DNA of 64,000 nt from Arthrobacter sp. H35-D1 (GTDB lineage Bacteria > Actinomycetota > Actinomycetes > Actinomycetales > Micrococcaceae). Below the pieces are notes generated by a model that had not been told where the DNA came from, did not search any database, and saw nothing but the letters and a program-made list of their open reading frames with translations. Positions 13,896 to 64,000 of this stretch are shown piece after piece. Position 1 is the stretch's first letter. Each line of letters opens with the position of its first letter. Where the stretch lies: NCBI RefSeq assembly GCF_030063185.1, contig NZ_JASISP010000004.1:104852-168851 (forward strand), in the 5' to 3' direction. A program made the position numbers and the translations under genes.

Positions 13896-15293
13896 TTGAC
13901 AGAGCGCAACACCGTGGACACCAACGTGTCCGAAAACATTAAAACCCTGAAAGTGGCGCTCCTGGGCGCCGGAAATGTGGGCTCGCAGGTTGCCCGCATT
14001 CTGCTCGAGGACGCCGACGCGTTGGCTGCCCGCACGGGTGCCCGACTCAAGCTCGTGGGGATTGCCGTGCGCAACGTCGACGCCCCGCGCGACGTTGCGG
14101 CCCCCCGGGAGCTGTACACCACCGACGCCTCGGCCCTTGTGCGCAATGCCGACATTGTCATTGAGCTCATGGGCGGCATGGAACCGGCCCGCACGCTGAT
14201 TCTTGAAGCCATTGAGCACGGGGCCGCCGTGGTCACGGGCAACAAGGCACTGCTGGCGGTTGACGGACCCACCTTGTACGAGAAAGCGGATGCCGCCGGC
14301 GTGCAGCTTTCCTACGAGGCCGCCGTGGCCGGGGCCATCCCCATCCTGCGCCCCATTACGGACAGCCTGGCGGGGGACAAGATCACCCGCGTCATGGGCA
14401 TTGTCAACGGCACCACCAACTACATCCTCGACGCCATGGATTCCACCGGCGCGCAGTTTTCCGACGCACTGGCCGACGCCACCCGTCTGGGCTATGCCGA
14501 AGCTGATCCCACCGCGGATATCGAAGGGCACGACGCCGCAGCCAAGGGAGCCATTTTGGCCTCGCTGGCCTTCCATACGCGTTTCGCGCTGTCGGACGTG
14601 CACTGCCAGGGCATCACGGGCGTGACGGCCGAGGACATTGCCGCGGCCAAGGATGCTGGCTACGTCATCAAGCTGCTGGCCATCGCCGAGAAGCTGAGCA
14701 ATCCCGAGGCGGGCCGGACGGACGGGACGGACGACGGCGGCGCCCCGGACTTGGGCGTCAGCGTGCGGGTGCACCCGACACTGTTGCCGCGCGAACATCC
14801 GCTGGCTGCCGTGCGCGGTGCGTACAACGCCGTGTTTGTGGAAGCCGAGTCCGCCGGGGAGCTCATGTTCTACGGCCGCGGTGCCGGTGGAGCTCCCACG
14901 GCCTCGGCCGTCATGGGCGATGTTGTTTCCGCAGCCCGCCGCTTGGTGTTGGGCGGCCCGGGCCGCACTGATTCGACTATTGAAGTGCTGCCGGTGCTGC
15001 CCATCGAGGCCGTGTCCACGCGCTACTACATAGACATGGATGCCGCGGACCAGCCCGGCGTGCTGTCGAAGATTTCCGCGCTGTTTGCCGAGCACGGCGT
15101 CTCCATTGAGACGATGCGCCAGAGCACGCACCGTGAGCGCGAGGAAGCCGTGAATGCGGGGCCCGGTTCCGCCGAGCTGCGCATTGTCACGCACCGTGCC
15201 AGCGAAGCTGCCCTGGCAGCAACCGTCGAAGCCATCAAGGGCCTTGACGTTATTAATTCAGTGACAAGTGTCTTGAGGGTGGAGGGAGTCTAA
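13896..15293 (+). CDS. hom: Homoserine dehydrogenase
   Basis: 465-residue enzyme reducing aspartate-semialdehyde to homoserine. The NAD(P) loop is [12 protein letters not shown], the catalytic core includes [11 protein letters not shown] and the [16 protein letters not shown] stretch, and the C-terminus holds an ACT domain beginning [17 protein letters not shown], which in this family binds threonine for feedback inhibition. The start is drawn at TTG 13896; a GTG at 13914 is an alternative. A D/G-rich insertion ([15 protein letters not shown]) lies before the ACT domain. thrC starts inside its stop codon. Confidence 0.96.
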
Positions 15294-16396
15294 TGGCTCA
15301 CCAGTGGCGCGGAGTGGTCCGCGAATATGCAGAGCGTTTGCCGGTAACGGCGGAAACCAAGGTCATCACGCTGGGGGAGGGTGGCACACCATTGGTGTAC
15401 GCCCAGCAGCTCTCCGCCCTGACGGGGTCCGAGGTGTACTTGAAGGTCGAGGGCATGAACCCCACCGGATCCTTCAAGGACCGCGGCATGACCATGGCCA
15501 TGACGGCGGCTGTCGCCGCCGGCGCCAAGGCCGTGGTGTGCGCCTCGACGGGCAACACCTCGGCGTCGGCCGCTGCCTACGCCAAGGCCGCAGGCCTGAC
15601 GTGCGCCGTGCTGGTGCCCGAAGGCAAGATCTCCATGGGCAAGCTCAGCCAGGCGGTGGCCCACGGCGCCACCCTCCTGCAGGTCGACGGCAACTTCGAC
15701 AACTGCTTGGACGTTGCGCGCAAGCTGGCCGACTCCTACCCGGTGTTCCTGGTGAACTCGGTCAACCCGGCACGCATCGAGGGCCAGAAGACCGGTGCCT
15801 TTGAGGTGGTTGATGCCCTGGGTGACGCCCCCGACTACCATGTGTTGCCTGTCGGCAACGCAGGGAACATCAGCGCCTATTGGCGCGGATACAAGGAATA
15901 CTGCGCACCGTACGAGTCCGTGGAAAACGGCACCTTGGCGCCGGTTTCCACCCACACCCCCATCATGTGGGGTTTTCAGGCTGCCGGGGCTGCCCCGTTT
16001 GTGGCAGGCCACCCCATCACCGAACCGGACACCATTGCCACCGCCATCCGCATTGGCAACCCGGCCTCGTGGGACTTGGCCATTGCCGCCCGCGACGAAT
16101 CAGGCGGACTCATTGAAGCTGTCACGGATGAGGAAATTCTCGCCGCACACCGCTGGCTCTCCGCCAAGGAAGGCGTCTTTGTGGAGCCTGGCTCCGCAGC
16201 AGGCGTTGCAGGCCTCATCAAGAAGCACGCGGCCGGAGAAGTCCCCACCGGCAAGACCTTCGTCATCACTGTCACCGGCCACGGCTTGAAGGATCCCGAC
16301 TGGGCCTTGAAGAACGCCGACGGCAGTTCCGTCACGCCCACCTCAGTGCCCTTTGACGTGGTCACAGTTGCCGGCGCACTGGGTTTGACGGACTAG
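15293..16396 (+). CDS. thrC: Threonine synthase
   Basis: 367-residue PLP enzyme converting O-phosphohomoserine to threonine. The PLP lysine is K62 in [11 protein letters not shown], with the Gly-rich phosphate loop in PVGNAGN and the [13 protein letters not shown] segment of the type II fold. The length matches the short (class with plant/actinobacterial) form. Its ATG overlaps the hom stop by one base (TAATG), implying translational coupling, so the two enzymes should be made in fixed ratio. Confidence 0.97.
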
Positions 16397-52403: not shown

Positions 52404-53474
52404 CTAGCTCGGCGGATTCTGGGGGAAAACGGCAAAGGATGCTTCTCCGGTAAATCCATCCTGCTGGACAGTGACGGTTGCCGCTGTACCGACCGGATCG
52501 GTGGATTGTCCCTCCACCGGGGGAGGAGCCTGACTGGTGCCGACGGCCACTGCCAATCCGTTCTGATCAACCTGCACCACTTTGTCATTGCTTGTTGACC
52601 AGACGGCCCTGTCAGCAAGACGGGTGTTGCCGTCATTGAGCACGAACTCGGCCTTCAGCTGCTGGCTTTGTCCCACTTGGAGCTCGGTTGCAGGCGGGTC
52701 GATCCGCAGGCCCACGATCGCCACCGGGACATCAATGTGAGCCTGGGCTGTCTGCCCGTCCTCGGTCAATGTGATCAGCGCGCTGCCCGTTCCGGTCGCT
52801 GTCACCAGCCCCCCTCCGTCAACGGCAGCCACGGCCGGGTTGTTGGATCGCCAGATTCCCGTGGCTCCAACCGGTCTGCTGGAACCGTCGCTGAACGTGC
52901 CAACGGCAGCCAGCTGCAAGGATTGTCTCAGTCCCAAGGTGACAGTTGGAGGCGTCAGTGAAATTGACGTCAGTGAGGGACTGGCAGTTTGCAGGACAGT
53001 GAACTGCAGACGGCCCTGAATGGATTCCCGAGTGGCCTCGATGGTAATCCTGCCCGGATTCAGTGCCCTGACCACTCCGGCGGAATCGACTGTGGCGATG
53101 TCCGCATCGCTCGAAGCCCAACGCACTCCATCGGTCAATGGCTGCACAGACCCATCACTGAAACGGCCCTCCGCATCCATTTGCACTGACTGCCCCGTTT
53201 CCGCACTGGCCCCATCGGCATGGACTGTGATCGACACCAAGGTACGTGCCAGCGAAGGCTCCGGCGCCGTGTCAGCTCCGGCCGCCAGCGAATGGGCCAA
53301 AAAAAGGGAAGCTGTGAGAGCCAACATCACTGTCATGACGGCGGCATAAGTGACAATGAGGCGGAGGCGGTATCGTTGCCAGCCGCGCGTCAGGGCACGC
53401 TCGCCGTCGACGGCTTGCAGAGTGGCACGTTCGGCCGCCTCCAGCCAAAGACTCTGCTTCAACGAGGGGTTCAC
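52404..53474 (-). CDS. Single-pass protein with three Ig-like (Big_2) domains
   Basis: 356 residues: a basic cytoplasmic stretch (1-37), one membrane segment (about 38-62) and three bacterial Ig-like domains (about 78-161, 168-250 and 252-350), each with the Big_2 pattern V-x-G-Q/L-x-x-x-L-x-A...W-x-S-x-D/N-x-x-V-A-x-V-D-x-x-G-x-V-x-A. The domains lie outside the cell. Its GTG overlaps the stop of the membrane-linked sigma-like gene (GTGA), so the pair is coupled. The short cytosolic end could bind that protein; this is a guess. It shows no known enzyme motif. Confidence 0.75.
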   Translation of the reverse strand: MNPSLKQSLWLEAAERATLQAVDGERALTRGWQRYRLRLIVTYAAVMTVMLALTASLFLAHSLAAGADTAPEPSLARTLVSITVHADGASAETGQSVQMDAEGRFSDGSVQPLTDGVRWASSDADIATVDSAGVVRALNPGRITIEATRESIQGRLQFTVLQTASPSLTSISLTPPTVTLGLRQSLQLAAVGTFSDGSSRPVGATGIWRSNNPAVAAVDGGGLVTATGTGSALITLTEDGQTAQAHIDVPVAIVGLRIDPPATELQVGQSQQLKAEFVLNDGNTRLADRAVWSTSNDKVVQVDQNGLAVAVGTSQAPPPVEGQSTDPVGTAATVTVQQDGFTGEASFAVFPQNPPS

Positions 53475-54139
53475 GGTCCCGTTCCGCCCGAAGCCAATCG
53501 ATTGACAGCAGCTTCCGCAGCGTTCAGTGTGGCGGCTGTCTGTCGCAGCGACGAACCCGTGATGGATGCAATCTGGGACAGAGGGAGGTCGGCGAACTCG
53601 TGGAGAACCACCACGACCCGCTGCGTTGGGGACAGGCTCGCCAGCGCAGCCACTGGCGTTGGGGCAGCATTGTTGGGGGCCGGAAGCTGCGCCCACTTCC
53701 TGTGCGAGTCAAGCAATTTCACTAAAACGCACAAAATGTAAAGGCGGGTCTCTTCGGTAATGGGGCCGCGCCACGTGGCAGTTGTTTTGGCCCATGCGGA
53801 CTCCAACAGCGAGGCGGCGAGCACGGGGTCGTCACACAGCAATTGGGCGCACAATTCCAGTTCCCCGGAATCCCCCCTGATCTCTGTGGACAGTTCTTGC
53901 CTGCGGTTTCTCACGGCTGCCAGAACTTTCACTCCTGTGGGGAAGCCCAACTCGATCTCGCGCACGGATGGAAGCAGAATCACCACCACGAACAGGACAA
54001 TTCCAATGCCCATCGGAACGAGGCCGAGCGTGTTGGGAATTTGCCACCCGGCGATCACAATGGCTGCAGCGAGGAGAGACAGCAGCAGCCTGGCTGGACG
54101 GAGAACCGACTGCCACTTTCGTTTGGGAACATCGCACAT
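53471..54139 (-). CDS. Sigma-factor-like protein with two N-terminal membrane segments
   Basis: 222 residues. Segments 14-33 and 38-58 form a membrane hairpin flanked by basic residues on the cytoplasmic side. Residues 100-145 weakly resemble sigma region 2, and 168-215 (SLSPTQRVVVVLHEFADLPL through ASITGSSLRQTAATLNAAEA) are a clear ECF-type region 4 helix-turn-helix. A sigma fused to membrane anchors is unusual. AGGAAG precedes the ATG at 54139. It is divergent from the injection system genes with 416 bases between, and overlaps the Big_2 gene downstream. Probable regulator of the locus, inferred. Confidence 0.7.
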   Translation of the reverse strand: MCDVPKRKWQSVLRPARLLLSLLAAAIVIAGWQIPNTLGLVPMGIGIVLFVVVILLPSVREIELGFPTGVKVLAAVRNRRQELSTEIRGDSGELELCAQLLCDDPVLAASLLESAWAKTTATWRGPITEETRLYILCVLVKLLDSHRKWAQLPAPNNAAPTPVAALASLSPTQRVVVVLHEFADLPLSQIASITGSSLRQTAATLNAAEAAVNRLASGGTGP

Positions 54140-54555: not shown

Positions 54556-55206
54556 GTGAGCGTGGTGAGAACTGAGCTGGCCGCACTGGTGGAAATACTC
54601 CGCTCTGCTGTCCCGCCCGACGATGTTCGCCTGGTCGATGACGATGAAAATGACCGCGAGCCTGCGCCGGTGGCTGTCCGGGCCATCGCACTCAGCCGGG
54701 TCGGACGGTCACGCCGGGCCGGACCTGTTTTGGATCTGGAACTGGCTGTTTCCGTGGTTTGCACAGGGGATCAGCGGTTGGAGAATCTGGAAAGGCTGAT
54801 AACCACCATCGAGGGCGGCAGCCGGTATTCCACCAGCACATTGGATCGGAGGTGGCCTCCGGCAACGCCCGCAGGCATCGGCTTTCAGGTTCAGGTGCCG
54901 GTTGCCATCCCGCTCGACGAGCCGATGGCAGTGACCGTCCGGGAGCCGCTGCAGGTGAAAATGCAAGTGGGGCGGCATCTCACCGGAGTCGTTATTGACA
55001 CTCACGGTAACGGTCTTGGCGGTGCACGCGTCCGATCCGCAGCCTCCAGTGTTGCCGTAGCCTGCGATCCGCAGGGACGGTTTGAATGCTTTTCCACGTC
55101 GGACACGGAACAGTTGCTGACTGTCGAGTTTCAGGATTCAATCAGGCAGTTCACCGCCAACGCGAGAATGCTTCCCATCACCCTTCGATGGGATGGAAAG
55201 GATTAG
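54556..55206 (+). CDS. DUF4255-like protein (Pvc16/Afp16-type cap), extended
   Basis: 216 residues. The first 110 residues have the DUF4255-type plan (helix, then LDLELAVSVVCTGDQRLENLERL), found in proteins that end the tail tube in contractile injection systems. Residues about 138-205 look like a carboxypeptidase-regulatory-like beta-sandwich (GVVIDTHGNGLGGARVR...DPQGRFECF). It is the first gene of the plus-strand run, one base pair group ahead of the sheath. The GTG at 54556 has GGGGTG upstream; an earlier GTG/ATG start at 54499 reads less well. Confidence 0.6.
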   Translation: MSVVRTELAALVEILRSAVPPDDVRLVDDDENDREPAPVAVRAIALSRVGRSRRAGPVLDLELAVSVVCTGDQRLENLERLITTIEGGSRYSTSTLDRRWPPATPAGIGFQVQVPVAIPLDEPMAVTVREPLQVKMQVGRHLTGVVIDTHGNGLGGARVRSAASSVAVACDPQGRFECFSTSDTEQLLTVEFQDSIRQFTANARMLPITLRWDGKD

Positions 55207-55208
55207 CC

Positions 55209-56513
55209 ATGCCCAACTATCTGGCCCCGGGAGTTTATGTACAGGAGGTGCCCAGCGGCGCCCGGTCCATTGGCCGCGTAAATACCAGCATTGCCGCGTT
55301 CATTGGGGTGGCGCCCATGGCGTCAGCCCGGCTGGACGAAGCAGTGGTCATCGACAATTACACCCAGTTCGCCGACATGTACGTGGGAGAGTCGACGGCA
55401 GGGACGGCCCTTGCCAACGCCGTTTACGGGTTCTTTGATGAGGGTGGCGGACGGTGTTACGTCGTCAACATCGGCCTGAACGGATCCCTTACGGGCACGT
55501 CTGCCAAGCCGACGGGCCTGAAGCTGCTGGAAGCCATCGATGACATCTCCATGGTGGCTGCCCCAGGCTATGCGGATCCAGCGGCCTATGCCGCGTTGAT
55601 TGGCCACTGTGAACATCCGCTCCGACAGGACCGCATGGCGATTTTGGACACCGTGGAAGTGGTTGATGACGTCTCTGCACTGACCCGGGTCGGAACTGTG
55701 GGGGACTCCGATTCCGCACCCGGCGGTGACAGCTCCGCGAGCACCGGGTCGGGGCACGATACGGCGCCGGACGGCGGCGATGCGGACTCCGGGTCCAGCC
55801 CGCCCACCCCACCTGCGAAAAAAGTTCCTGCTGCGGAATTGGCGCTCGGTGCGCCGCAGTCACCCGGAGGCTACGCAGCACTGTATTACCCCTGGATTCG
55901 GGTAAAGGACGTGGTGACAGGCAATCTCGTCAACCAGCCGCCATCTGGACATGTCGCGGGCGTCTGGGCGCGGGTGGACAACAGCAGAGGTGTCCACAAG
56001 GCCCCGGCCAATGAGCCAATCCGGAACGCGCTTGGCTTGGTACGTCGCATTAGCAGGGGCGAGCAGGAGGTGCTGAACCCTGCCGGGGTCAACTGCATTC
56101 GGTATTTCCCCACGGAGGGAACACTGGTGTGGGGTACCCGCACGCGCGCCGCAGAGGCCAGTCCGTACCGGTATATTCCCGTGCGTCGGCTGACAAACAT
56201 GATCAAGGAGTCAATTGCCGATGGCACCCGGTGGTGTCTCTTTGAACCGAACGGCTTCGAATTGTGGCGCTCAATTCATCGGGAGATCAGCGCATTTCTT
56301 ACAGGTGTGTGGCGTGACGGGGGATTGCTGGGGCGCACCCCACAGGAAGCCTTCTTCGTCCAGTGCGACGCGACCACCAATCCACCGGATGTTCGGGATG
56401 CCGGTCAGGTCATCGCCATCGTTGGCATCGCGCCCGTGAAGCCCGCTGAGTTCGTCATTTTCAAGGTGATGCAGTCGGCGGACATCACCGAGATCCAGAA
56501 TGTAGGAGCTTAG
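55209..56513 (+). CDS. Contractile tail sheath protein
   Basis: 434-residue sheath subunit. The N-terminus APGVYVQEVPSGARSIGRVNTSIAAFIGVA is the sheath signature and the C-terminal block (RIRSIFREISAFL-like: SIHREISAFLTGVWRDGGLLG, then AFFVQCDATTNPP) forms the interlocking arm. Residues about 161-207 are a Ser/Gly/Asp/Pro insert in the exposed domain. AAAGGA precedes the ATG. Only one sheath gene is present, where PVC/Afp have several. The tube gene follows one base after the stop. Confidence 0.93.
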   Translation: MPNYLAPGVYVQEVPSGARSIGRVNTSIAAFIGVAPMASARLDEAVVIDNYTQFADMYVGESTAGTALANAVYGFFDEGGGRCYVVNIGLNGSLTGTSAKPTGLKLLEAIDDISMVAAPGYADPAAYAALIGHCEHPLRQDRMAILDTVEVVDDVSALTRVGTVGDSDSAPGGDSSASTGSGHDTAPDGGDADSGSSPPTPPAKKVPAAELALGAPQSPGGYAALYYPWIRVKDVVTGNLVNQPPSGHVAGVWARVDNSRGVHKAPANEPIRNALGLVRRISRGEQEVLNPAGVNCIRYFPTEGTLVWGTRTRAAEASPYRYIPVRRLTNMIKESIADGTRWCLFEPNGFELWRSIHREISAFLTGVWRDGGLLGRTPQEAFFVQCDATTNPPDVRDAGQVIAIVGIAPVKPAEFVIFKVMQSADITEIQNVGA

Positions 56514-56514
56514 G

Positions 56515-57000
56515 ATGAGTGAACAACCAGCGTCCGTGCCCGCTGCTCAGCCGGGAAATATTGTGGACCCATACCGCCAATACAACTTCAAACTGGTCAT
56601 TCAAGGCGTGGTCCAGGGACATTTCACCCGGATTGACCCGTTTGAAATCATTGTCCATCACCTGGACCACCGTGAGGGAACCGATCACGCCACCACCACG
56701 ACCCTGATGGGCAGGGTCGAATATCCGCCCGTGACACTCCGCTATGGTCTGACAGAGTCGAGAGAAATGTGGCGGTGGCTCTTCAATGCCGTGTCCGGCG
56801 TGTCGGACCGCCGCAACGTCTCGATCGTGCTGCTCAACGAGTCGGGAACTGACGAGGTTCGGCGCTGGAACCTCATCCGGGCCTGGCCTTGCCGTTGGCG
56901 CAGCCCGTCCTTCAAGGCGTTGGGAAACGGCTTGGCCATCGAACACATGACACTTGCCTATGACCGGCTGGAGCTCGACGATGCTGGCGCGGCTGGGTAA
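56515..57000 (+). CDS. Contractile tail tube protein
   Basis: 161-residue inner tube subunit of the T4 gp19/Pvc1 family. Conserved segments are DPYRQYNFKLVI, ESREMWRWLFNAVSG, RRNVSIVLLNESG and the near-C-terminal RRWNLIRAWPCRW with GLAIEHMTLAYDRLEL. A Pro/Ala/Gln-rich N-terminal tail of about 16 residues precedes the fold. It starts one base after the sheath gene and overlaps the next gene by 20 bases. Confidence 0.92.
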   Translation: MSEQPASVPAAQPGNIVDPYRQYNFKLVIQGVVQGHFTRIDPFEIIVHHLDHREGTDHATTTTLMGRVEYPPVTLRYGLTESREMWRWLFNAVSGVSDRRNVSIVLLNESGTDEVRRWNLIRAWPCRWRSPSFKALGNGLAIEHMTLAYDRLELDDAGAAG

Positions 57001-58198
57001 GAGGGTGGGGGCCTTGCTCCGGAAGGCCGCCCAAGCCCTGGAAGGCGAACCGGCCGGGAAGTCCGCAACCACAGCTCAGCGGAATCAAACTCTGGACATG
57101 GATTTGAGCGGCATGGACTTTCACGATGCCCCCGAACACTGGATTCAAATGCTGCGTGACGGTGGCATGGAACCCGCCATGTCCCACGACTCCACCAATG
57201 TTGCGCCATGGTCACCCAGCTGGGGGCCACCGCTGGAAGGGCCTGTTGGTGCAGACATTGGCGCAGACAATCCGTCGCAGCAGGTCGGGGGTTCGGCAGG
57301 TCCCAGCCGTGATGACGTGTCCCGTCCACCCGACCCGGTGTTGGCTCCACCACATGGCAGCGGCGGCGCACGGCGCTGGGCAGACAAGAGTCAAAGCGGC
57401 CGCCTCAACCTGTCTCGTCGAGCGGCCGCACCAGAGGCCGGGGAGACGGGCAAGTTGAAACGGCCCGCTGGACAGACGGATACAGCCTCAGGAAAAGGGC
57501 AAATCGGGAAGACCGCCGCAGACGCCCATGTACATCGTCCACCGGCCGCTGAAACCATCACGGAATCTAGGCATCCTGATGGACACAGCCACAGCGTGGC
57601 CCGTGCGGTTGATCCTGCGCGGTTCGGGCTCCCGGACCACAAAACAGTCACGGCGGCCAGTCCCCCTGCAGTGCAGGAGACACCCGGCAATCCGCCCGCC
57701 GCCCGCCCGCAACTCGGACAACAGCACAAGGCGCAACGCGAATCCGGGACAACGGGGGAACCTTCCGATCTGCGGCAGGGAGCAGCTGAACCAGATGCAA
57801 GATTCCGAAAGGTCCGCAGCCGGAAGCAGAGGCGCCAAAGGATCAGTCGCCCTGGACTGAACCAGCACCGGAGCGAAGCTGGCGCTTCGCCGGGGCAGCG
57901 TGGGGGACAGGGACAGGGCCGTGCAGTGAGGCAGAACGGCCCTGCCGAAACCCGGCCTCAAGAGCACGCAAAAGCGCAGGGCCAGGCCCGCACAAACATT
58001 CAGACTCTCGTCCAAAACCAGCCCCGTGCCACGTCTACCGGACAAAAATCGGATACGGCCAGCCAGTCACCGTGGCCTGAGCTGAACCACGCTTTCCCGG
58101 CACCAATTACCGTGATGGCTCCGCCTGCCGATGCACCCGCCCTTGAACGTTCCCTGGCACGTGCCCATCGGCTGCGCGCCGAGCAGGCTGAGGTGTGA
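56981..58198 (+). CDS. Long disordered protein of the injection system locus
   Basis: 405 residues, unrecognised. The N-terminus is a basic amphipathic helix (MLARLGKRVGALLRKAAQAL) and APEHWIQMLRDGG (about 50-62) is the only other segment that looks ordered. From about 75 to 380 the sequence is Pro/Gln/Gly/Ala/Arg-rich low complexity. The C-terminus ends in a short charged helix (LERSLARAHRLRAEQAEV). ATG 56981 has GGAG at seven bases and lies in the 3' end of the tube gene. Its place between tube and hub suggests a structural linker, tape-like or cargo-adaptor part; unknown. Confidence 0.6.
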   Translation: MLARLGKRVGALLRKAAQALEGEPAGKSATTAQRNQTLDMDLSGMDFHDAPEHWIQMLRDGGMEPAMSHDSTNVAPWSPSWGPPLEGPVGADIGADNPSQQVGGSAGPSRDDVSRPPDPVLAPPHGSGGARRWADKSQSGRLNLSRRAAAPEAGETGKLKRPAGQTDTASGKGQIGKTAADAHVHRPPAAETITESRHPDGHSHSVARAVDPARFGLPDHKTVTAASPPAVQETPGNPPAARPQLGQQHKAQRESGTTGEPSDLRQGAAEPDARFRKVRSRKQRRQRISRPGLNQHRSEAGASPGQRGGQGQGRAVRQNGPAETRPQEHAKAQGQARTNIQTLVQNQPRATSTGQKSDTASQSPWPELNHAFPAPITVMAPPADAPALERSLARAHRLRAEQAEV

Positions 58199-58199
58199 C

Positions 58200-58964
58200 A
58201 TGGAGAGAGTCGCGTTTTTGATCGAGGACACCGGCGAGCACTTTGGGGCCCTGCTTAATCCTGAAACTGTCCTCATGTCGCGAACGGCCGGCGTCGAACC
58301 GCATCGTTCCGGTGGCGGCAGGCTGGCTGGTGCAGCCCTGGCGGACGACCCCCTGCTGTTTACGGGCGGCGGCCACACCGAACTTCGAATGGATCTGGTT
58401 TTTGACGTTGACCTGGCCCCGGCGCATCTGTCCGTTTCTGATGTACGCCAAATGACCAGACACATCTGGAGTTTGGCTGAGAACTCAACCGAAGTTGAGC
58501 AACAGCGCCGACCGCCGTCCGTCCGTTTTGTGTGGGGCCGGGCATGGAATGTGCCGGGAGTTGTCACGGAGGTGGCTGAACGCTTTGACCGTTTCGCCCC
58601 GGACGGGTCACCTTTGCGGTCATGGATGCGTTTGGTTTTTGTCCGCGTCGGCCAAAACCCGGACGAAGAAGGCGGGGAGAATTACGAGTTGGCCCAGCGG
58701 CTGCCCGCTGTGGATCTGACGGCACCCCCCGTGGGTGCATTGGAGGTCATTGGTGATGGCGCCGACGAGGACTTGATGGAGGAAGACGACGGGAACTCCA
58801 TGGTGTCTCTGCCGCACGTTCCCCCCGGAGAGCTGGGAATTCTGTCCTGGCGTGCGTTTGGAACACCGCTGCAGTGGAAACTCCTGCTCGGCTACAACAA
58901 TATCGACAACCCCTTTGGGTTCGCCGGTCCGTTGGCAGTTCCACCTGTTGTGGAGGACAGATGA
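58200..58964 (+). CDS. LysM-like hub/tube-adaptor protein (Pvc7/CIS-tube type)
   Basis: 254 residues. The N-terminal domain, MERVAFLIEDTGEHFGALLN followed by PETVLMSR, matches the CIS tube-adaptor group that joins tube to spike. The C-terminal 45 residues, PGELGILSWRAFGTPLQWKL...NNIDNPFGFAGPLAVPP, have the LysM-type plan with the final VPP. An acidic linker (EVIGDGADEDLMEEDDGN) joins them. ATG 58200 has GAGGTG upstream; the next gene starts in its stop (ATGA). Confidence 0.85.
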   Translation: MERVAFLIEDTGEHFGALLNPETVLMSRTAGVEPHRSGGGRLAGAALADDPLLFTGGGHTELRMDLVFDVDLAPAHLSVSDVRQMTRHIWSLAENSTEVEQQRRPPSVRFVWGRAWNVPGVVTEVAERFDRFAPDGSPLRSWMRLVFVRVGQNPDEEGGENYELAQRLPAVDLTAPPVGALEVIGDGADEDLMEEDDGNSMVSLPHVPPGELGILSWRAFGTPLQWKLLLGYNNIDNPFGFAGPLAVPPVVEDR

Positions 58965-60475
58965 AAGCCATCCAGGGACTGCCGGAACTCGTCGTCACCC
59001 TCGGGCGGCGGCGGCTCTCTGCCGCCGAACTGGCGGGCATGACCCGGATCCAGGTCCGGTCGGCGCTGGCCCAGCCGACGCAGTGTCTGGCCGTTTGGCA
59101 GGTCGGTGATGCCGGCGGTTCCCGCCGAGTTGAGCCGGCTCCGGGGGATTCCTTGAAAGTGGAGCTGGCTGGTCACCGCACCCCATTGTTCGTGGGAGAA
59201 GTGACGGTTGTTGAGCACGGCTACGGCTCCGGCCGGCTTCAGGAAGTCAGAGTTCGGGCCTATGACGCGCTGCACCGCCTGCGTAAACGCCAACATACCC
59301 GGCGGCACGAAGCCGGTAACCTTGCCGAATTGGCTGCGCGCTTGGCGGAGGGCACCGGACTTCGGATAGTGGGGGGTGGGAATCGTATTGGGGCCGTGTA
59401 CCAGTGTGCGCGCTCGGACCTGGATCTGCTGGTTGAGGCCAGCGCACGGCTCGGACTCTATCCAGTTGTTGATGAATCCACGCTGCGTCTGGTGGGCCTG
59501 GGCGGGGACGGGGAACCGATTGAGCTGGCATTGGGTTCCACTCTGCATTCGGCGGAGCTGGAAGTGAGCCAAGAACCGTCCTTCCGCAGTGCGGCCGTCA
59601 ATGCCTGGAATCCGGACGGGGCGGGCACTGTCAGCGGCAGCGCCCGCAGCGAACGGGCACGTCCTTCTGTTCGCGCCGATCCGGCACCTCAGGGAGTAGG
59701 CGGAGGCGGGCTGCTGCAACGGTCCAATGAAACGTTCGACGACGGGAGTATTGCCGCGGAGCTGGCCCAGGCAGATCTCGACGTACGTTTGGCTGCCGAA
59801 GTTGGGGGCGTGCTTGTTGCCGCGGGCAATCCGGCCATGCAGGCCGGACGGCGAGTGCAGATCAGCGGGGTGGCGAGGGACTTTGAAGGCACCTACCCCA
59901 TATGCAGCGCGCTGCACACTCTCAGCGGCGACGGGTATGAAACCACCCTGTCAACCCTCCCACCACCGCCACCGCGTACCCGGGCAGCGGATGTGACGAC
60001 GCTCGGCGTGATCACCGATGTTGAAGATCCGCAACAACGCGGACGGGTGCTGGTCCGTCTTCCGGCCTATCCGGACTTGCTGACGCAGTGGGCTCCCGTT
60101 CTGGTGATGGGTGCCGGCGCCAACAAGGGCGCGGTGATACTGCCTGACACCGGGGATACCGTGCTGGTGCTGCTGGTCGCGGGAAGTCCGGAAGACGCCG
60201 TCGTACTCGGAGGGCTCTTTGGCGAAAACCAGCCCCCGGACGCCAGCGTCCCCGGTGAGCGGGGCAGCCGTTACACGGTCCGGACCGCCGACGGCCAGGA
60301 ATTGGTCCTGAACGGGGCGGCTCATGGTGTGCGGTTGAGCGACGGGCGCGGATCGCTGGTGGAGATGGGTCCGGATCTGCTGCGAATCACCGCGGCCACC
60401 GATCTGGTGCTGGAGGCGCCCGGCCATGCCATCCGCATTCGGGCCCGAGCGGTGGATTTTGAGGAGGCGACATGA
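58961..60475 (+). CDS. VgrG-like spike protein (Pvc8 type)
   Basis: 504-residue central spike. The first 330 residues resemble the gp27/phage D-type hub, then an OB-fold begins at GVITDVEDPQQRGRVLVRLP and ends near VVLGGLFGENQPPD, which is the gp5/VgrG-type pattern. The C-terminal 70 residues (RYTVRTADGQELVLNGA...VLEAPGHAIRI) are short strands that would form the trimeric needle. TGGAGG precedes the ATG. It overlaps its neighbours by four bases each. Confidence 0.9.
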   Translation: MKAIQGLPELVVTLGRRRLSAAELAGMTRIQVRSALAQPTQCLAVWQVGDAGGSRRVEPAPGDSLKVELAGHRTPLFVGEVTVVEHGYGSGRLQEVRVRAYDALHRLRKRQHTRRHEAGNLAELAARLAEGTGLRIVGGGNRIGAVYQCARSDLDLLVEASARLGLYPVVDESTLRLVGLGGDGEPIELALGSTLHSAELEVSQEPSFRSAAVNAWNPDGAGTVSGSARSERARPSVRADPAPQGVGGGGLLQRSNETFDDGSIAAELAQADLDVRLAAEVGGVLVAAGNPAMQAGRRVQISGVARDFEGTYPICSALHTLSGDGYETTLSTLPPPPPRTRAADVTTLGVITDVEDPQQRGRVLVRLPAYPDLLTQWAPVLVMGAGANKGAVILPDTGDTVLVLLVAGSPEDAVVLGGLFGENQPPDASVPGERGSRYTVRTADGQELVLNGAAHGVRLSDGRGSLVEMGPDLLRITAATDLVLEAPGHAIRIRARAVDFEEAT

Positions 60476-60810
60476 AAATTCTGGTTGCGCGTGGCATCCT
60501 CCGTTGTGGACACGATGGCAGTGTTGTCAACGTTCCGTCCCAAACGTGGGTGCGGATCAATTCCTCGCCTGTGCTTGTTGAAGCTGATCCGCAAGGACGG
60601 GGCATACGAATGTGTCCCAACATGGGTGTCAACATCAAACCGTGCACCTTGACGCTGGCCGTGCACCATGGCTATTCGGGGTTCATCCGGATCGGCCGGC
60701 AGGCAATTTGTCTTGACTCTGTCGAAGGCTTCACCGATGGGACGCCGCCAGGCTCTGTGATGTACACAGTCCGCGCTCCGGGGCAGCTGTTCGTGGAGGC
60801 GGCACGATGA
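60472..60810 (+). CDS. PAAR-like spike tip protein
   Basis: 112-residue small tip protein. CPNMGVNIKPCTLTLAVHHG and GQAICLD-type Cys placement (Cys12, Cys48, Cys58, Cys80) plus His14, His65 and His66 could bind a metal at the tip apex, as PAAR proteins do. The canonical PAAR triplet is not evident, so the fold is inferred from size, Cys pattern and position after the spike gene. In tail locus order it sits where the tip gene normally is. Confidence 0.65.
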   Translation: MKILVARGILRCGHDGSVVNVPSQTWVRINSSPVLVEADPQGRGIRMCPNMGVNIKPCTLTLAVHHGYSGFIRIGRQAICLDSVEGFTDGTPPGSVMYTVRAPGQLFVEAAR

Positions 60811-61241
60811 ATCAGCCCCGCTACCGTTCACTGATGCTGGTTCATCCGGACTTTGATGCCGCACAGGGCCCTGCCGGGTTGCGCGTTGGTGCCGGCGGCA
60901 GGCTGGCCACTGTTCACGATGCTGTTTCGGTGCGGCAGGCGGTGCTGCTGCTGCTGAGTACGCGGCCAGGGGAACGCATCAACCGGCCTGACTATGGCTG
61001 CTACCTGTTTCGGCTGGCGTTCGCGCCGAACGATGACACCACGGCGGGCCTGGCCATCCACTATGTCGCCCGTGCCCTTGAACGGTGGGAGAAGCGGATA
61101 ATCGTGCTTTCACTTGACGCAGCTGGGACTCCCGACGATCCGTCTCTGCTGGAAGTGCGGTTGCGCTATCGGGTCAGGGCCTCTGCGCATGAAGACGACA
61201 TCGCCATTGTGGTCCCCGTTGAGACAAGAGGTGCAGGATGA
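60807..61241 (+). CDS. Gp25-like baseplate wedge protein
   Basis: 144-residue member of the GPW/gp25 family, part of the baseplate that starts sheath contraction. The motif SVRQAVLLLLSTRPGERINRPDYGC is the family hallmark, with the helix LAIHYVARALERWEKRI and strands EVRLRYRVRAS after it. Overlaps the tip gene by four bases and the baseplate-J gene by four. Confidence 0.92.
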   Translation: MNQPRYRSLMLVHPDFDAAQGPAGLRVGAGGRLATVHDAVSVRQAVLLLLSTRPGERINRPDYGCYLFRLAFAPNDDTTAGLAIHYVARALERWEKRIIVLSLDAAGTPDDPSLLEVRLRYRVRASAHEDDIAIVVPVETRGAG

Positions 61242-63814
61242 GCATCCCCATCCCCAATCTGGACGACCGCTCCTTTGCCGACCTGGTGGAAAGTGCGCGC
61301 GAACGGATCCGGCAGATTGACCCGGACTGGACCGACCTGTCAGTGCATGATCCAGGCATGGTCCTCATTGAAGCGTTTGCGCATCTCACCGACATGCTCA
61401 TGTACAGGCTCAACAGGGTGCCGGAGAAACTCTATGCGGTCTACCTGAACCTGCTGGGAACAGCACTTCGGCCACCCAGTGCTGCCGAAACGATCCTTGA
61501 ATTTACCCGTGTCGCCGCCGGCGGCAACGAGATGCTCATTCCACGCGGCACCCAGGTGGGTGGTGCGCCCGGTCTCCCAGGCACGCCGCAACCATTGTTT
61601 GTCACGACGGCCGACGGGGTGCTGCCGGCCAACGCCGCGGGTGTCAAAATCCACGCGGTGGATGCGACTTTTTACGATGCCGTTCTCATCGGAACCGGGA
61701 CGGGCCGTCCCGGACAGACGTTCACCCTGCCCAACTCACCAGCAGTTTCGGGCCCGGGCATGGCCATCGCAGTGGAAGTGTCCGATGGTTCTGAACTTGT
61801 CAGCGGGGAGGCGGTTCTGGTGGATGGTGCGGCTTACAGATATTGCCGCGAGGTGGAGGCTTTCGCCGATGCGCGACCGGGTGAGACGGCAGTCCGCGTT
61901 GACCGGTCATCGGGCACCATCTCGTTCGCTTGGTGGAACGGGACTGACCATGACCGCCCAGGTGTGCCGGCCCCCGGTGCCCAGATACGGGCGTGGTACC
62001 GCTGTGGGGGCGGCGAACGGGGCAATGTTGCCGCTGGAAATTTGTCAGTCCTGCGCACACAAATCTCCGGTTTGCGGGTCAGCAACCCGGAGCCTGCCAC
62101 GGGGGGCCGTGAGGCGGAGCCATTGCAGGACGCCCTGCGCCGGGCGCCACAGGACTTCCAGGCCCGTGACCGGGCCGTCACGGCGCGGGACTATGAAGCG
62201 CTCGCGGTTCGCAATGGGGCAGTGGCCAGAAGCCGGGCCTTTACGCGGAAGGACGCGTGGGAGTTCGCCAACCCGGGGGAAGTCGAGGTGGTCCTGGTGC
62301 CCCAGATCCCGGACGTGTCCAGGCCGGATGGACGCGTCGATGCCGAGTCCCTGGCCGCGCATGAACGGGAGGACGTGCGTCTGGAGGTGGAGCGGTATCT
62401 GCAGGAGCGGGCGACGATCGGGGCCCAGCCTGTTGTCCGGTGGGGGCTGTACAAACAGGTGCTGGTTCAGGCGATTGTCGTGGTGCGCCCGGAAGAGGAC
62501 CCGGAGGCCGTCAGAACCCGCATATCCCGACGTTTGGCGCAGTCCATCAATCCATTGCCGACGGGCCTGCCAGGCTACGGCTCCGGTTTCGGGAAGGCGC
62601 TGAGGGTGTCAAATCTCTTCCGTATCATGGAGGAAGCCGAACCGGGCGTGAAATACGTTGAGTCTGTGCGGCTTCGACTGGACAAGGCTCCCGACTCCGA
62701 CGCCGCCGCACTTGTCCAGGCCCAGGGGCAGCCCAGGACATGGTTTGTGGCGCAGAATGGCATCCTCTTCCGGACCACCAATTCGGCAGCCGGGTGGGAA
62801 GCCTGCGGTGAGTTTCCGAGGGAGGTGATCCGTGCGGTTGCACCGTTCCCCACGTTCGGTCCCGGCGGTTCCGGGGGAAACGCGCATCCTGGAAAAGTTG
62901 CTGTGGCCACCAGCTCGGGCCAGGGCTCCCGGGTGTACATCAGTGATGATCTGGGCGAGAGTTGGCGCCGTGCCGCCGAACTGGGGTTTCCGCTGTCGGA
63001 TCTGGCCTGGGTGGACCGGAACGGACATGCGGAGCTGCTTGTGGTGGGTCAGAACGGACTGTACGAGCTTGGCGAGGAAGGCACGGTGCCCGTGCAAAAC
63101 CTTGTGGATCCGGCTAAACCCGACCGTGGCTTCTACACCGTGGACTCCTTTGTTGATGTGCGCGGGAGAACCGGCGTCGTTGTCGCGGCTGAGGCGTCCG
63201 CGGGCATTTGGCTCTCTCCGGACGCAGGCGCTCCCGAAAGCTTTTACCAAATCAGGGATGCAGGGGAAGACGTGCGCTGCATGTCCGTGCAATATGAGGG
63301 CCCAACGACGTTCCTGTGGATGGGACGGTCCGTGGCCGAGGGCGATGGAACGGGGTGTGCACGGCTAAAAATCGATGAACTCGGGCGTACGAATTTTGAT
63401 ACCACGCTCCGGAACTCCTGGGAACAGTTGAGCCGGGGTTGGGGCGGGGGAAGCTGTTGGGGCATGAACATAGTTGGTGATTCAGCCTATGCTGCAACGC
63501 AGAGCGGAGGCGTACTGCGCCTGAGGCTCGGCGGCGGCCAGCCTTCATGGGAACAGTGCGATGTAAACTGCGGCCTTCCGCTGCGTGACCGGGCCCGGTT
63601 TGAACCCGTCAGATCAGTTTCCGGGGCCATCCGGGATGATGGTGCCCCGCTGGTCATCGCCGCGGGCCCCCGTGGGGTGTACTTGTGTGGCGATGCGGCA
63701 CCCGATTGGGAAAATTGCGGTTCCCGCGTGGTCTCTGACGTTGTGACAATTCCAGAAACCTGGCTGTTTTGTTCAGGAGATCACCGGGTGGAGGTGATGC
63801 GGGAGCATGGCTAG
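61238..63814 (+). CDS. Baseplate-J-type protein fused to a probable beta-propeller
   Basis: 858 residues. The N-terminal 480 residues are a baseplate wedge of Pvc11/Afp11 type: DPDWTDLSVHDPGMVLIEAFAHLTDML, RGNVAAGNLS and VTARDYEALA are family marks. Residues about 490-858 are a different domain with Asp-box-like repeats (YISDDLGESWRR at 567-578, FRTTNSAAGW at 511-520) and repeated Gly/Trp strands, resembling BNR or sialidase-type beta-propellers. Such a fusion is not part of the classic PVC/Afp subunit. It overlaps the next gene by eight bases. Confidence 0.85.
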   Translation: MSIPIPNLDDRSFADLVESARERIRQIDPDWTDLSVHDPGMVLIEAFAHLTDMLMYRLNRVPEKLYAVYLNLLGTALRPPSAAETILEFTRVAAGGNEMLIPRGTQVGGAPGLPGTPQPLFVTTADGVLPANAAGVKIHAVDATFYDAVLIGTGTGRPGQTFTLPNSPAVSGPGMAIAVEVSDGSELVSGEAVLVDGAAYRYCREVEAFADARPGETAVRVDRSSGTISFAWWNGTDHDRPGVPAPGAQIRAWYRCGGGERGNVAAGNLSVLRTQISGLRVSNPEPATGGREAEPLQDALRRAPQDFQARDRAVTARDYEALAVRNGAVARSRAFTRKDAWEFANPGEVEVVLVPQIPDVSRPDGRVDAESLAAHEREDVRLEVERYLQERATIGAQPVVRWGLYKQVLVQAIVVVRPEEDPEAVRTRISRRLAQSINPLPTGLPGYGSGFGKALRVSNLFRIMEEAEPGVKYVESVRLRLDKAPDSDAAALVQAQGQPRTWFVAQNGILFRTTNSAAGWEACGEFPREVIRAVAPFPTFGPGGSGGNAHPGKVAVATSSGQGSRVYISDDLGESWRRAAELGFPLSDLAWVDRNGHAELLVVGQNGLYELGEEGTVPVQNLVDPAKPDRGFYTVDSFVDVRGRTGVVVAAEASAGIWLSPDAGAPESFYQIRDAGEDVRCMSVQYEGPTTFLWMGRSVAEGDGTGCARLKIDELGRTNFDTTLRNSWEQLSRGWGGGSCWGMNIVGDSAYAATQSGGVLRLRLGGGQPSWEQCDVNCGLPLRDRARFEPVRSVSGAIRDDGAPLVIAAGPRGVYLCGDAAPDWENCGSRVVSDVVTIPETWLFCSGDHRVEVMREHG

Positions 63815-64000
63815 TGTCCCATTGCTGCCGCTGTTGCCTGAGGTCTTTCAGGTTTGCGCACCGGCCAGCGCACCGCTGCGGGCGATTGCCGCTGTTGCCG
63901 GGGACATGCACGTGCCGATTCACGAGGTGCTCGATTCCGTGGACCGGCTGGTGGACCCCTTCAGAACACCTGACACTTTGCTCGGATACCTGTCCCGGTG
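63807..64000 (+). CDS. Tail-protein-I-like (TIGR02242-type) protein, 5' end only
   Basis: 64 full codons, cut off by the window end. The start MASVPLLPLLPEVFQVCAPA and DSVDRLVDPFRTPDTLLGYL match the pattern L-P-x-x-F, then L-D-x-x-D-x-x-x-D-P-x-x-T-P-x-x-x-x-x-x-L of the phage tail protein I family that follows baseplate J. ATG 63807 overlaps the preceding gene by eight bases, with GGGAG just upstream (gap of one base), a weak site. Confidence 0.65.
   Translation, partial: MASVPLLPLLPEVFQVCAPASAPLRAIAAVAGDMHVPIHEVLDSVDRLVDPFRTPDTLLGYLSR

Follow-up and report, generated by a model that had tools for sequence, protein, structure and literature searches.

The DNA considered here is a stretch of 64,000 nucleotides (the window) from contig NZ_JASISP010000004.1 of Arthrobacter sp. 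H35-D1, a member of the Micrococcaceae with a genome of 4.46 Mb over 86 contigs, and at its right end lies a contractile injection system (CIS). The locus is a real and coherent CIS variant, one without an AAA+ ATPase and with membrane proteins of its own, rather than, by a published criterion, an extracellular CIS (eCIS). As annotated, the system is compact and self-contained and spans ~12 kb, from 54556 to ~66670 when mem4, a membrane protein gene at its right end, is counted in. An earlier sequence-only reading had proposed a run of contractile-tail genes in a core chromosome context. The run proved to be real, with Pfam or NCBIfam matches for the sheath, tube, hub, VgrG, gp25, J and tail-I, and the operon does sit amid core genes, the neighbouring genes being judged by reading. 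Sheath, tube, hub, spike, gp25 and J wedge all lie in a single cluster, which places the locus among the CIS. Its particle genes are given below with their support in brackets; the starts of the sheath (55209), the low-complexity open reading frame (ORF; 56960), the hub (58203) and VgrG (58961) were refined by means of relatives.

54556..55206, + strand: candidate cap or tail terminator, 216 aa, with a C-terminal CarboxypepD_reg-like domain (position, conservation)
55209..56513, + strand: tail sheath, single copy (PF04984 E 2.4e-16, PF17482)
56515..57000, + strand: inner tube, single copy (PF06841 E 8e-31, TIGR02241)
56960..58198, + strand: Ala/Pro/Gly-rich low-complexity protein with short conserved ends, seen by eye (place in relatives)
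58203..58964, + strand: hub or tube adaptor, Pvc7/Cis7-like (PF19266 E 7e-16)
58961..60475, + strand: VgrG-like spike (PF04717 E 3e-18; NF033848)
60472..60810, + strand: candidate PAAR-like tip with conserved Cys/His (position, conservation)
60807..61241, + strand: baseplate wedge gp25 (PF04965 E 4e-22)
61238..63814, + strand: baseplate J wedge (residues ~1-480) with a putative C-terminal Asp-box domain (~490-858) (PF04865 E 2.5e-8; TIGR02243 E 7e-76)
63807..64448, + strand: tail-I wedge, Cis12-like, the window ending at 64000 (PF09684 E 5e-5)

A single PF04984 match and a single PF06841 match were found genome-wide, which bears out the earlier statement that only one sheath and one tube gene are present and leaves the window genome with no second tube gene. 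The best solved matches for the sheath (8bky, E 4e-97), J (Cis11 of 9gtp, E 7e-58, best stretch 137-479), VgrG (the 9gtr spike, E 2e-16) and tail-I (9gtp_E, E 3e-8) are those of the Streptomyces coelicolor CIS (IId, intracellular). The tube is closest to Afp1 and not to the Streptomyces tube. Of the relatives first suggested (PVC, Afp, MAC, Streptomyces CIS), the intracellular Streptomyces system is therefore the one to which sheath and J point, and Afp is favoured by the tube. The hub was upheld by its PF19266 match, whereas the LysM part ascribed to it was seen by eye only; it weakly matches 9rce_H (E 0.002) and the LysM chain of 9gtp (E 0.01).

Three of the genes are placed with less help from models. 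The PAAR-like tip, also claimed earlier, is held by position and conservation, with no PAAR model match at E up to 1 and no match in a PDB profile search; C12, H14, C48, C58 and C80 are invariant in 10/10 Micrococcaceae rows, and some of these residues are lost in plasmid homologues. The cap candidate is the first gene of the operon in 13/13 unbroken relatives. It has no PF14065/Pvc16 model match at E up to 1, and the idea that it is a distant Pvc16_N protein was dropped when profile-profile comparison with Pvc16_N gave nothing; its Deinococcus homologue shows a sub-threshold Pvc16_N hint (E 0.07), and a PDB profile search with the candidate itself returned only a SusC-homologue chain (E 0.04). 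The low-complexity ORF (56960-58198), which the sequence-only reading had omitted along with the C-terminal extension of J, occupies the same place in relatives, with 344-441 aa in 11 of 13 as picked by script (those of L042 and L044 were not picked). Its product is probably disordered and has no family match in profile searches. Its ratio of nonsynonymous to synonymous substitution (dN/dS), measured against the Paenarthrobacter PH39-S1 locus, is 0.36. Over 16 gene pairs from the same two loci, all of them open, dN/dS ran from 0.05 to 0.36 with synonymous sites near saturation, a pattern expected under purifying selection.

The J protein departs most from its counterparts. Pairwise gaps indicate a middle ~150 residues shorter than in J of the ATPase-bearing CIS, and it runs on C-terminally for ~370 residues that contain Asp-box-like motifs. 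A self-made loose pattern found two of these in the window J against 0.13 expected in shuffles, and 2-3 per row in 14/14 J rows. Together with a weak glycosylhydrolase-type match (E 2e-4), the motifs make a beta-propeller the candidate fold for this domain. J homologues were detected in 63 of 394 genomes of the class, with a far C-terminal match listed only for the window genome and for G439, an actinomycete of another family.

Membrane module and missing hallmarks

It had been expected that the right half of the system, with AAA+ ATPase, tape measure, fibres and effectors, would lie outside the window. When this DNA was read, over ~30 kb beyond the window's end, the expectation failed and membrane protein genes were found instead. 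Tail-I ends at 64448 and is followed by a 156-aa single-pass protein (~64445-64915), then by a 303-aa single-pass protein here called the anchor (65020-65931) and, convergent on the opposite strand, by the polytopic mem4 (~65900-66670, start uncertain). Over these ~30 kb nothing was recognised as a CIS ATPase, a tape measure of the usual kind, a fibre or a toxin gene; for fibre genes after tail-I, reading and a Pfam scan gave none, no fibre-specific profile having been run, and membrane proteins stand there. As predicted from its genes, the locus is thus a particle gene set with a linked membrane module of anchor, small single-pass protein and mem4.

The anchor has one hydrophobic segment in 16/16 rows and is most conserved in its N-terminal part. 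Its outer part differs among the same rows, with PASTA domains in 13, TIG in two and Big_2 in one, and beyond residue 150 the number of cysteines is even in 15/15 complete copies, which suits an oxidising outside. In a model of a Pseudarthrobacter anchor (mean pLDDT 77, pTM 0.36), residues 4-112 form an Ig-like sandwich and 124-147 a helix, and two more domains stand where the PASTA matches are expected. By sequence and model the anchor is predicted to be a conserved Ig-like N-terminal domain joined to a swappable outer part. A carbohydrate-binding role for the outer part in G439 was considered and dropped, Pfam finding nothing there. Two anchors in tandem occur in four Arthrobacter loci (L040, L043, L045, L048), of which L043 belongs to the soil bacterium A. 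silvisoli and L048 to A. cupressi, likewise from soil. Paenarthrobacter PH39-S1 encodes, upstream of the operon, another anchor-type protein whose outer domains are Big_2 (L039, 8284-9255).

Although mem4 has no Pfam family, it closely tracks the compact CIS type. It was present in 15/15 compact genomes and 0/4 control genomes with other CIS, in two of the 394 class genomes (both compact) and, as a strong match, in five of 245 genomes of the family (all compact). Among 72,556 plasmid records it was found in six, five with a full-length J and one an apparent remnant. The anchor N-domain profile gave, besides G439, four marginal matches at class level (E 9e-6 to 9e-4), and tblastn found no particle gene in the flanks of three of these four; used as a single query, the N-domain had no match in plasmids.

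The CIS AAA+ ATPase was absent from the window genome in a whole-genome search with a same-genus CIS ATPase as query, and the idea of a copy hidden elsewhere in that genome was rejected on this result. In all, it was absent from 15 of 16 genomes holding a compact CIS, the window genome included. Such genomes yielded only AAA-core matches (best E 1e-17 to 4e-15), compared with E 2e-54 or better in genomes with other CIS. The sixteenth, G098 (judged from contig and coordinates to be the same genome as G633), has on a different contig a second CIS that includes sheaths, ATPase and Pvc16_N. Pvc16_N (PF14065) was found in 0/8 compact-only genomes at E up to 1 and in 4/4 genomes with an ATPase-type CIS. 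According to an excerpt of PMC10020575, an AAA+ ATPase and a Pvc16_N terminator are encoded in eCIS regions without exception; by this published criterion the compact system, where neither was found, is not an eCIS. The earlier preference for an eCIS over a prophage consequently stands in part: the locus is a CIS and, to judge from its neighbourhood, is not a prophage or a type VI secretion system (T6SS), while the word extracellular is unsupported, with AAA+ ATPase and Pvc16_N not found genome-wide.

Relatives on chromosomes and plasmids

The nearest named relatives belong to Arthrobacter, Paenarthrobacter and Pseudarthrobacter. Sheath matches occurred in 19 of the 245 family genomes, five of them (G000, G122, G176, G105, G098) of the compact type with 66-100% identity, and a scan of the contigs of named genomes gave 12 loci. 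All 13 unbroken loci share one order, namely cap candidate, sheath, tube, hub, VgrG, PAAR-like, gp25, J, tail-I, small membrane protein and anchor; the count omits L029, which meets a contig end, and the frameshifted L049, while L030 and L039 are one place. The upstream flanks (n = 5, genes named by reading) hold dnaK/grpE-like genes in three cases, a flagellar cluster in one and a transposase-like frame in one, and these differing chromosomal sites suggest that the cassette has moved horizontally. L049, from Arthrobacter sp. Hiyo8, has its CIS genes broken by many frameshifts, through assembly error or decay. A different type of CIS, in which there are two large sheath genes, occurs in other Micrococcaceae (L034; G141:C1:3371110-3376250).

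The compact type extends well beyond the family. G439 carries tail-I, anchor, small single-pass protein and mem4 in that order, all on one strand. A full-length J was found in five of the 72,556 plasmid records: Deinococcus AJ005, three of Rhodovulum and one of Paracoccus. Four of these copies were read (Deinococcus, two Rhodovulum, Paracoccus), and all have the same gene order with a PASTA protein after tail-I, Deinococcus having one extra gene between. The latter encodes a predicted multi-pass protein with no Pfam match (L093, 17046-17963). In the Deinococcus and Rhodovulum plasmids mem4 is convergent at the right end. Micrococcaceae profiles recovered 8/8 particle genes (sheath, tube, hub, VgrG, PAAR-like, gp25, J and tail-I) in G439 and the four plasmids, and those for the anchor, mem4 and the C-terminal part of J, which is present in these distant relatives, matched in all five as well. 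The N-terminal anchor profile alone matches G439, Deinococcus and Paracoccus. Six of 13 hub rows were lost from the profiles and the L045 hub row is only an upstream piece; the mem4 profile is without the L028 and L069 rows, and its L039 and L050 rows are partial. A local search at the four plasmid loci found no CIS ATPase, and this search does find the ATPase of Deinococcus grandis. The CIS of D. grandis pDEGR-1 was rejected as a compact system, being of the other, ATPase-bearing type; the D. grandis CIS preparations described in an excerpt of PMC12998442 are for this reason not counted for the compact type.

In a tree of 22 J rows, long branches present, the compact group formed one side of a branch with support 100/100, set against eight other CIS J proteins. 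L087, L090 and L091 (ORF picks without similarity) and the near-copies L028, L041, L044 and L045 were omitted, and L086 was not among the rows. The closeness of sheath and J to the Streptomyces type holds among solved structures only, J forming a group of its own in the tree.

Several further features of the plasmids were observed. AP014802.1, a Rhodovulum sulfidophilum plasmid (L097), carries mem4 and a neighbouring small gene at 14863-16072, with no particle genes; the two are flanked by acyl-CoA dehydrogenase and ABC transporter genes like the CIS flanks in DSM 1374, and the site is apparently a deletion remnant of a compact CIS. Immediately upstream of the compact CIS in a Rhodovulum plasmid stands an orphan pair of T6SS-type VgrG and PAAR genes (L094, 4612-6920), and a tyrosine-type recombinase/integrase gene lies ~4.5 kb upstream of it in the Deinococcus plasmid (L093, 2297-3238).

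Proposed membrane docking and its rivals

Comparison with known systems narrows the ways in which such a locus could work. The cluster of Streptomyces NBC_01324 shares the compact core order from tube through hub, VgrG, PAAR, gp25, J and tail-I to a membrane protein. The compact type differs from the Streptomyces CIS in lacking the ATPase, the DUF4255/Pvc16 cap, the second tube and the large protein that precedes it; its J is shorter in the middle and has the C-terminal domain, and mem4 is additional. An excerpt of PMC12237407 describes the S. coelicolor cluster as having no fibre or tape measure gene, and describes CisA as a membrane protein encoded directly after the baseplate genes and needed for contraction. 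The protein in the CisA position has the same place as the compact anchor and a like predicted topology. Another membrane-bound mode is that of the thylakoid-anchored CIS (tCIS) of cyanobacteria, which according to the same excerpt anchors through a baseplate extension, in contrast to the separate membrane proteins of the compact type; for the latter a membrane-bound mode is only proposed, and its sheath is related to that of 7b5h. The eCIS (PVC, Afp, AlgoCIS) have homologous sheath, tube, VgrG and J proteins, and from them the compact type differs in having no AAA+ ATPase, no Pvc16_N, no recognised fibre and no second sheath or tube gene.

The probable reading is that of an ATPase-less lineage of compact CIS whose particles are put together in the cytoplasm and dock on a membrane complex of their own, working like the Streptomyces CIS with CisA. 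By analogy with that system we infer docking and firing, which may run as follows. Particles would assemble in the cytoplasm, and the low-complexity protein encoded between tube and hub is the likeliest candidate for a tape measure or for cargo in the lumen. At the cytoplasmic membrane a dock would be built from anchor, small protein and mem4. The Ig-like domain of the anchor would be the site bound by tail-I or by the C-terminal domains of J at the baseplate, the contact with J being guessed because domain and anchor are both peculiar to the compact type. Outside, the PASTA, TIG or Big_2 part would hold or sense the cell wall. PASTA domains are known to bind wall fragments in PknB-type kinases, and the outer PASTA domain suggests such binding here. 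Contact or wall damage might then trigger contraction and drive the tube through the membrane, the direct effect being to pierce either the envelope of the producer itself, in programmed death or release, or that of a neighbour. The resemblance of the tube to Afp1 appears neither to help nor to harm this reading.

A number of observations weigh against it. The anchor has no significant similarity to the CisA-position protein of Streptomyces NBC_01324, so that it was rejected as a CisA homologue; that protein is taken for CisA from its place and architecture, S. coelicolor CisA itself being outside the comparison. In an excerpt of PMC10020575, deletion of the ATPase in S. coelicolor leaves normal-looking particles without function, and the lack of an ATPase could therefore point to an activity that has changed or been lost. 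The predicted structure of J is of too low quality to be of use (pLDDT 43), leaving the motifs and the weak match as the basis for the propeller. Linkage is imperfect too: mem4 lies upstream of the operon in Paracoccus, and one weak mem4 match (E 2e-4), probably by chance, occurs in G025, a genome without a matching sheath. The N-terminal anchor profile misses the Rhodovulum pair, whose anchor match may be due to PASTA. Outside the Micrococcaceae no homologue turned up with the profile of the small membrane protein or with that of the low-complexity protein, and the cap profile reaches only Deinococcus there, equivalence elsewhere being by place.

A true eCIS freed by lysis, with the membrane proteins limited to regulation, secretion or protection and the target bound through the C-terminal domain of J, would agree with the homology of the particle genes to eCIS genes and with the tube's best match to Afp1. 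Asp-box domains often bind glycans, which would also fit. Such a particle is nevertheless unlikely, since no fibre, ATPase, Pvc16_N or effector gene is seen in the operon and since anchor and mem4 accompany the system in three phyla. A contact-dependent weapon of T6SS kind, its tube fired outward into neighbours from the membrane module as a base, is similarly improbable. It could draw on a dedicated membrane module with a polytopic protein, and plasmid carriage and scattered chromosomal sites suit a competition trait. The compact system resembles the T6SS in gp25/TssE and VgrG, and would be alike in working if it is membrane-docked. However, no effector-immunity pair was recognised, the cell wall of Gram-positive hosts is an obstacle, and a search limited to the locus recognised no TssJ, TssL or TssM and matched its membrane proteins to no Tss family.

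The absence of capsid, terminase, portal and integrase genes, part of the first description, was confirmed in the gene lists read for the window and ~30 kb downstream; a PHROGs scan of 10 neighbours showed none either, no genome-wide profile search having been made. An R-type tailocin or prophage-tail remnant can be given hardly any credence: the particle genes do derive from contractile tails and nine of 50,697 phage records have weak J matches, but no phage record covers 80% of J, two scans of IMG/VR by short peptide patterns give no relative, no capsid, terminase, lysis or fibre gene was recognised in the stretches read, and J is of the TIGR02243 type beside a CIS hub.

A wider proposal can be made, tentatively and with rather more doubt than confidence: that these loci form a separately evolved class of minimal membrane-docked CIS, which has interchangeable wall-binding sensors, needs no AAA+ ATPase and possesses a membrane complex of its own that is related neither to CisA nor to the base of the T6SS, and which has spread, in part on plasmids, across Actinomycetota, Deinococcota and Alphaproteobacteria. 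In the open-licence PMC literature, judged by title and start of abstract, no paper on an Arthrobacter CIS was found and, among the matches listed, nothing on an ATPase-less CIS with its own membrane proteins; nor did any paper in that literature join a contractile injection system with a PASTA domain or with Rhodovulum. Fibreless systems are mentioned in PMC12923769, the compact type not being part of the content of the passages concerned. A survey described in an excerpt of PMC8213781 demanded at least ten core genes, and the compact type, with about nine recognisable ones, may be under-counted. A short operon from culturable soil bacteria, with its three membrane proteins, may hold the answer to how contractile systems other than the T6SS gain access to membranes. 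If the outer part of the anchor is the trigger, the natural swaps of PASTA, TIG and Big_2 would allow what is sensed to be compared, and a naturally ATPase-free system bears on the role of the CIS ATPase.

Flanking genes

On the right, past mem4, lie what are presumably genes for nicotinamidase, nicotinate phosphoribosyltransferase, ClpS, glutamate racemase, RNase PH and an RdgB-like protein, all named by reading. On the left the operon is preceded by two accessory genes and then a helicase gene.

52404..53510, longest frame from 53696, - strand: accessory protein with one predicted hydrophobic segment and Big_2 domains (PF02368 E 5e-30; hydropathy)
53471..54139, - strand, divergent from the operon: accessory protein with two predicted hydrophobic segments and a sigma-70 region-4 domain (PF08281 E 7e-7; hydropathy)

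Both recur at the Paenarthrobacter PH39-S1 locus, and the sigma-70 region-4 protein is absent from the examined flanks of other relatives. The Big_2 membrane protein was the exception in the PHROGs scan, cross-matching Ig-bearing head and tail families. Its neighbour at 53471-54139 may be a membrane-bound regulator.

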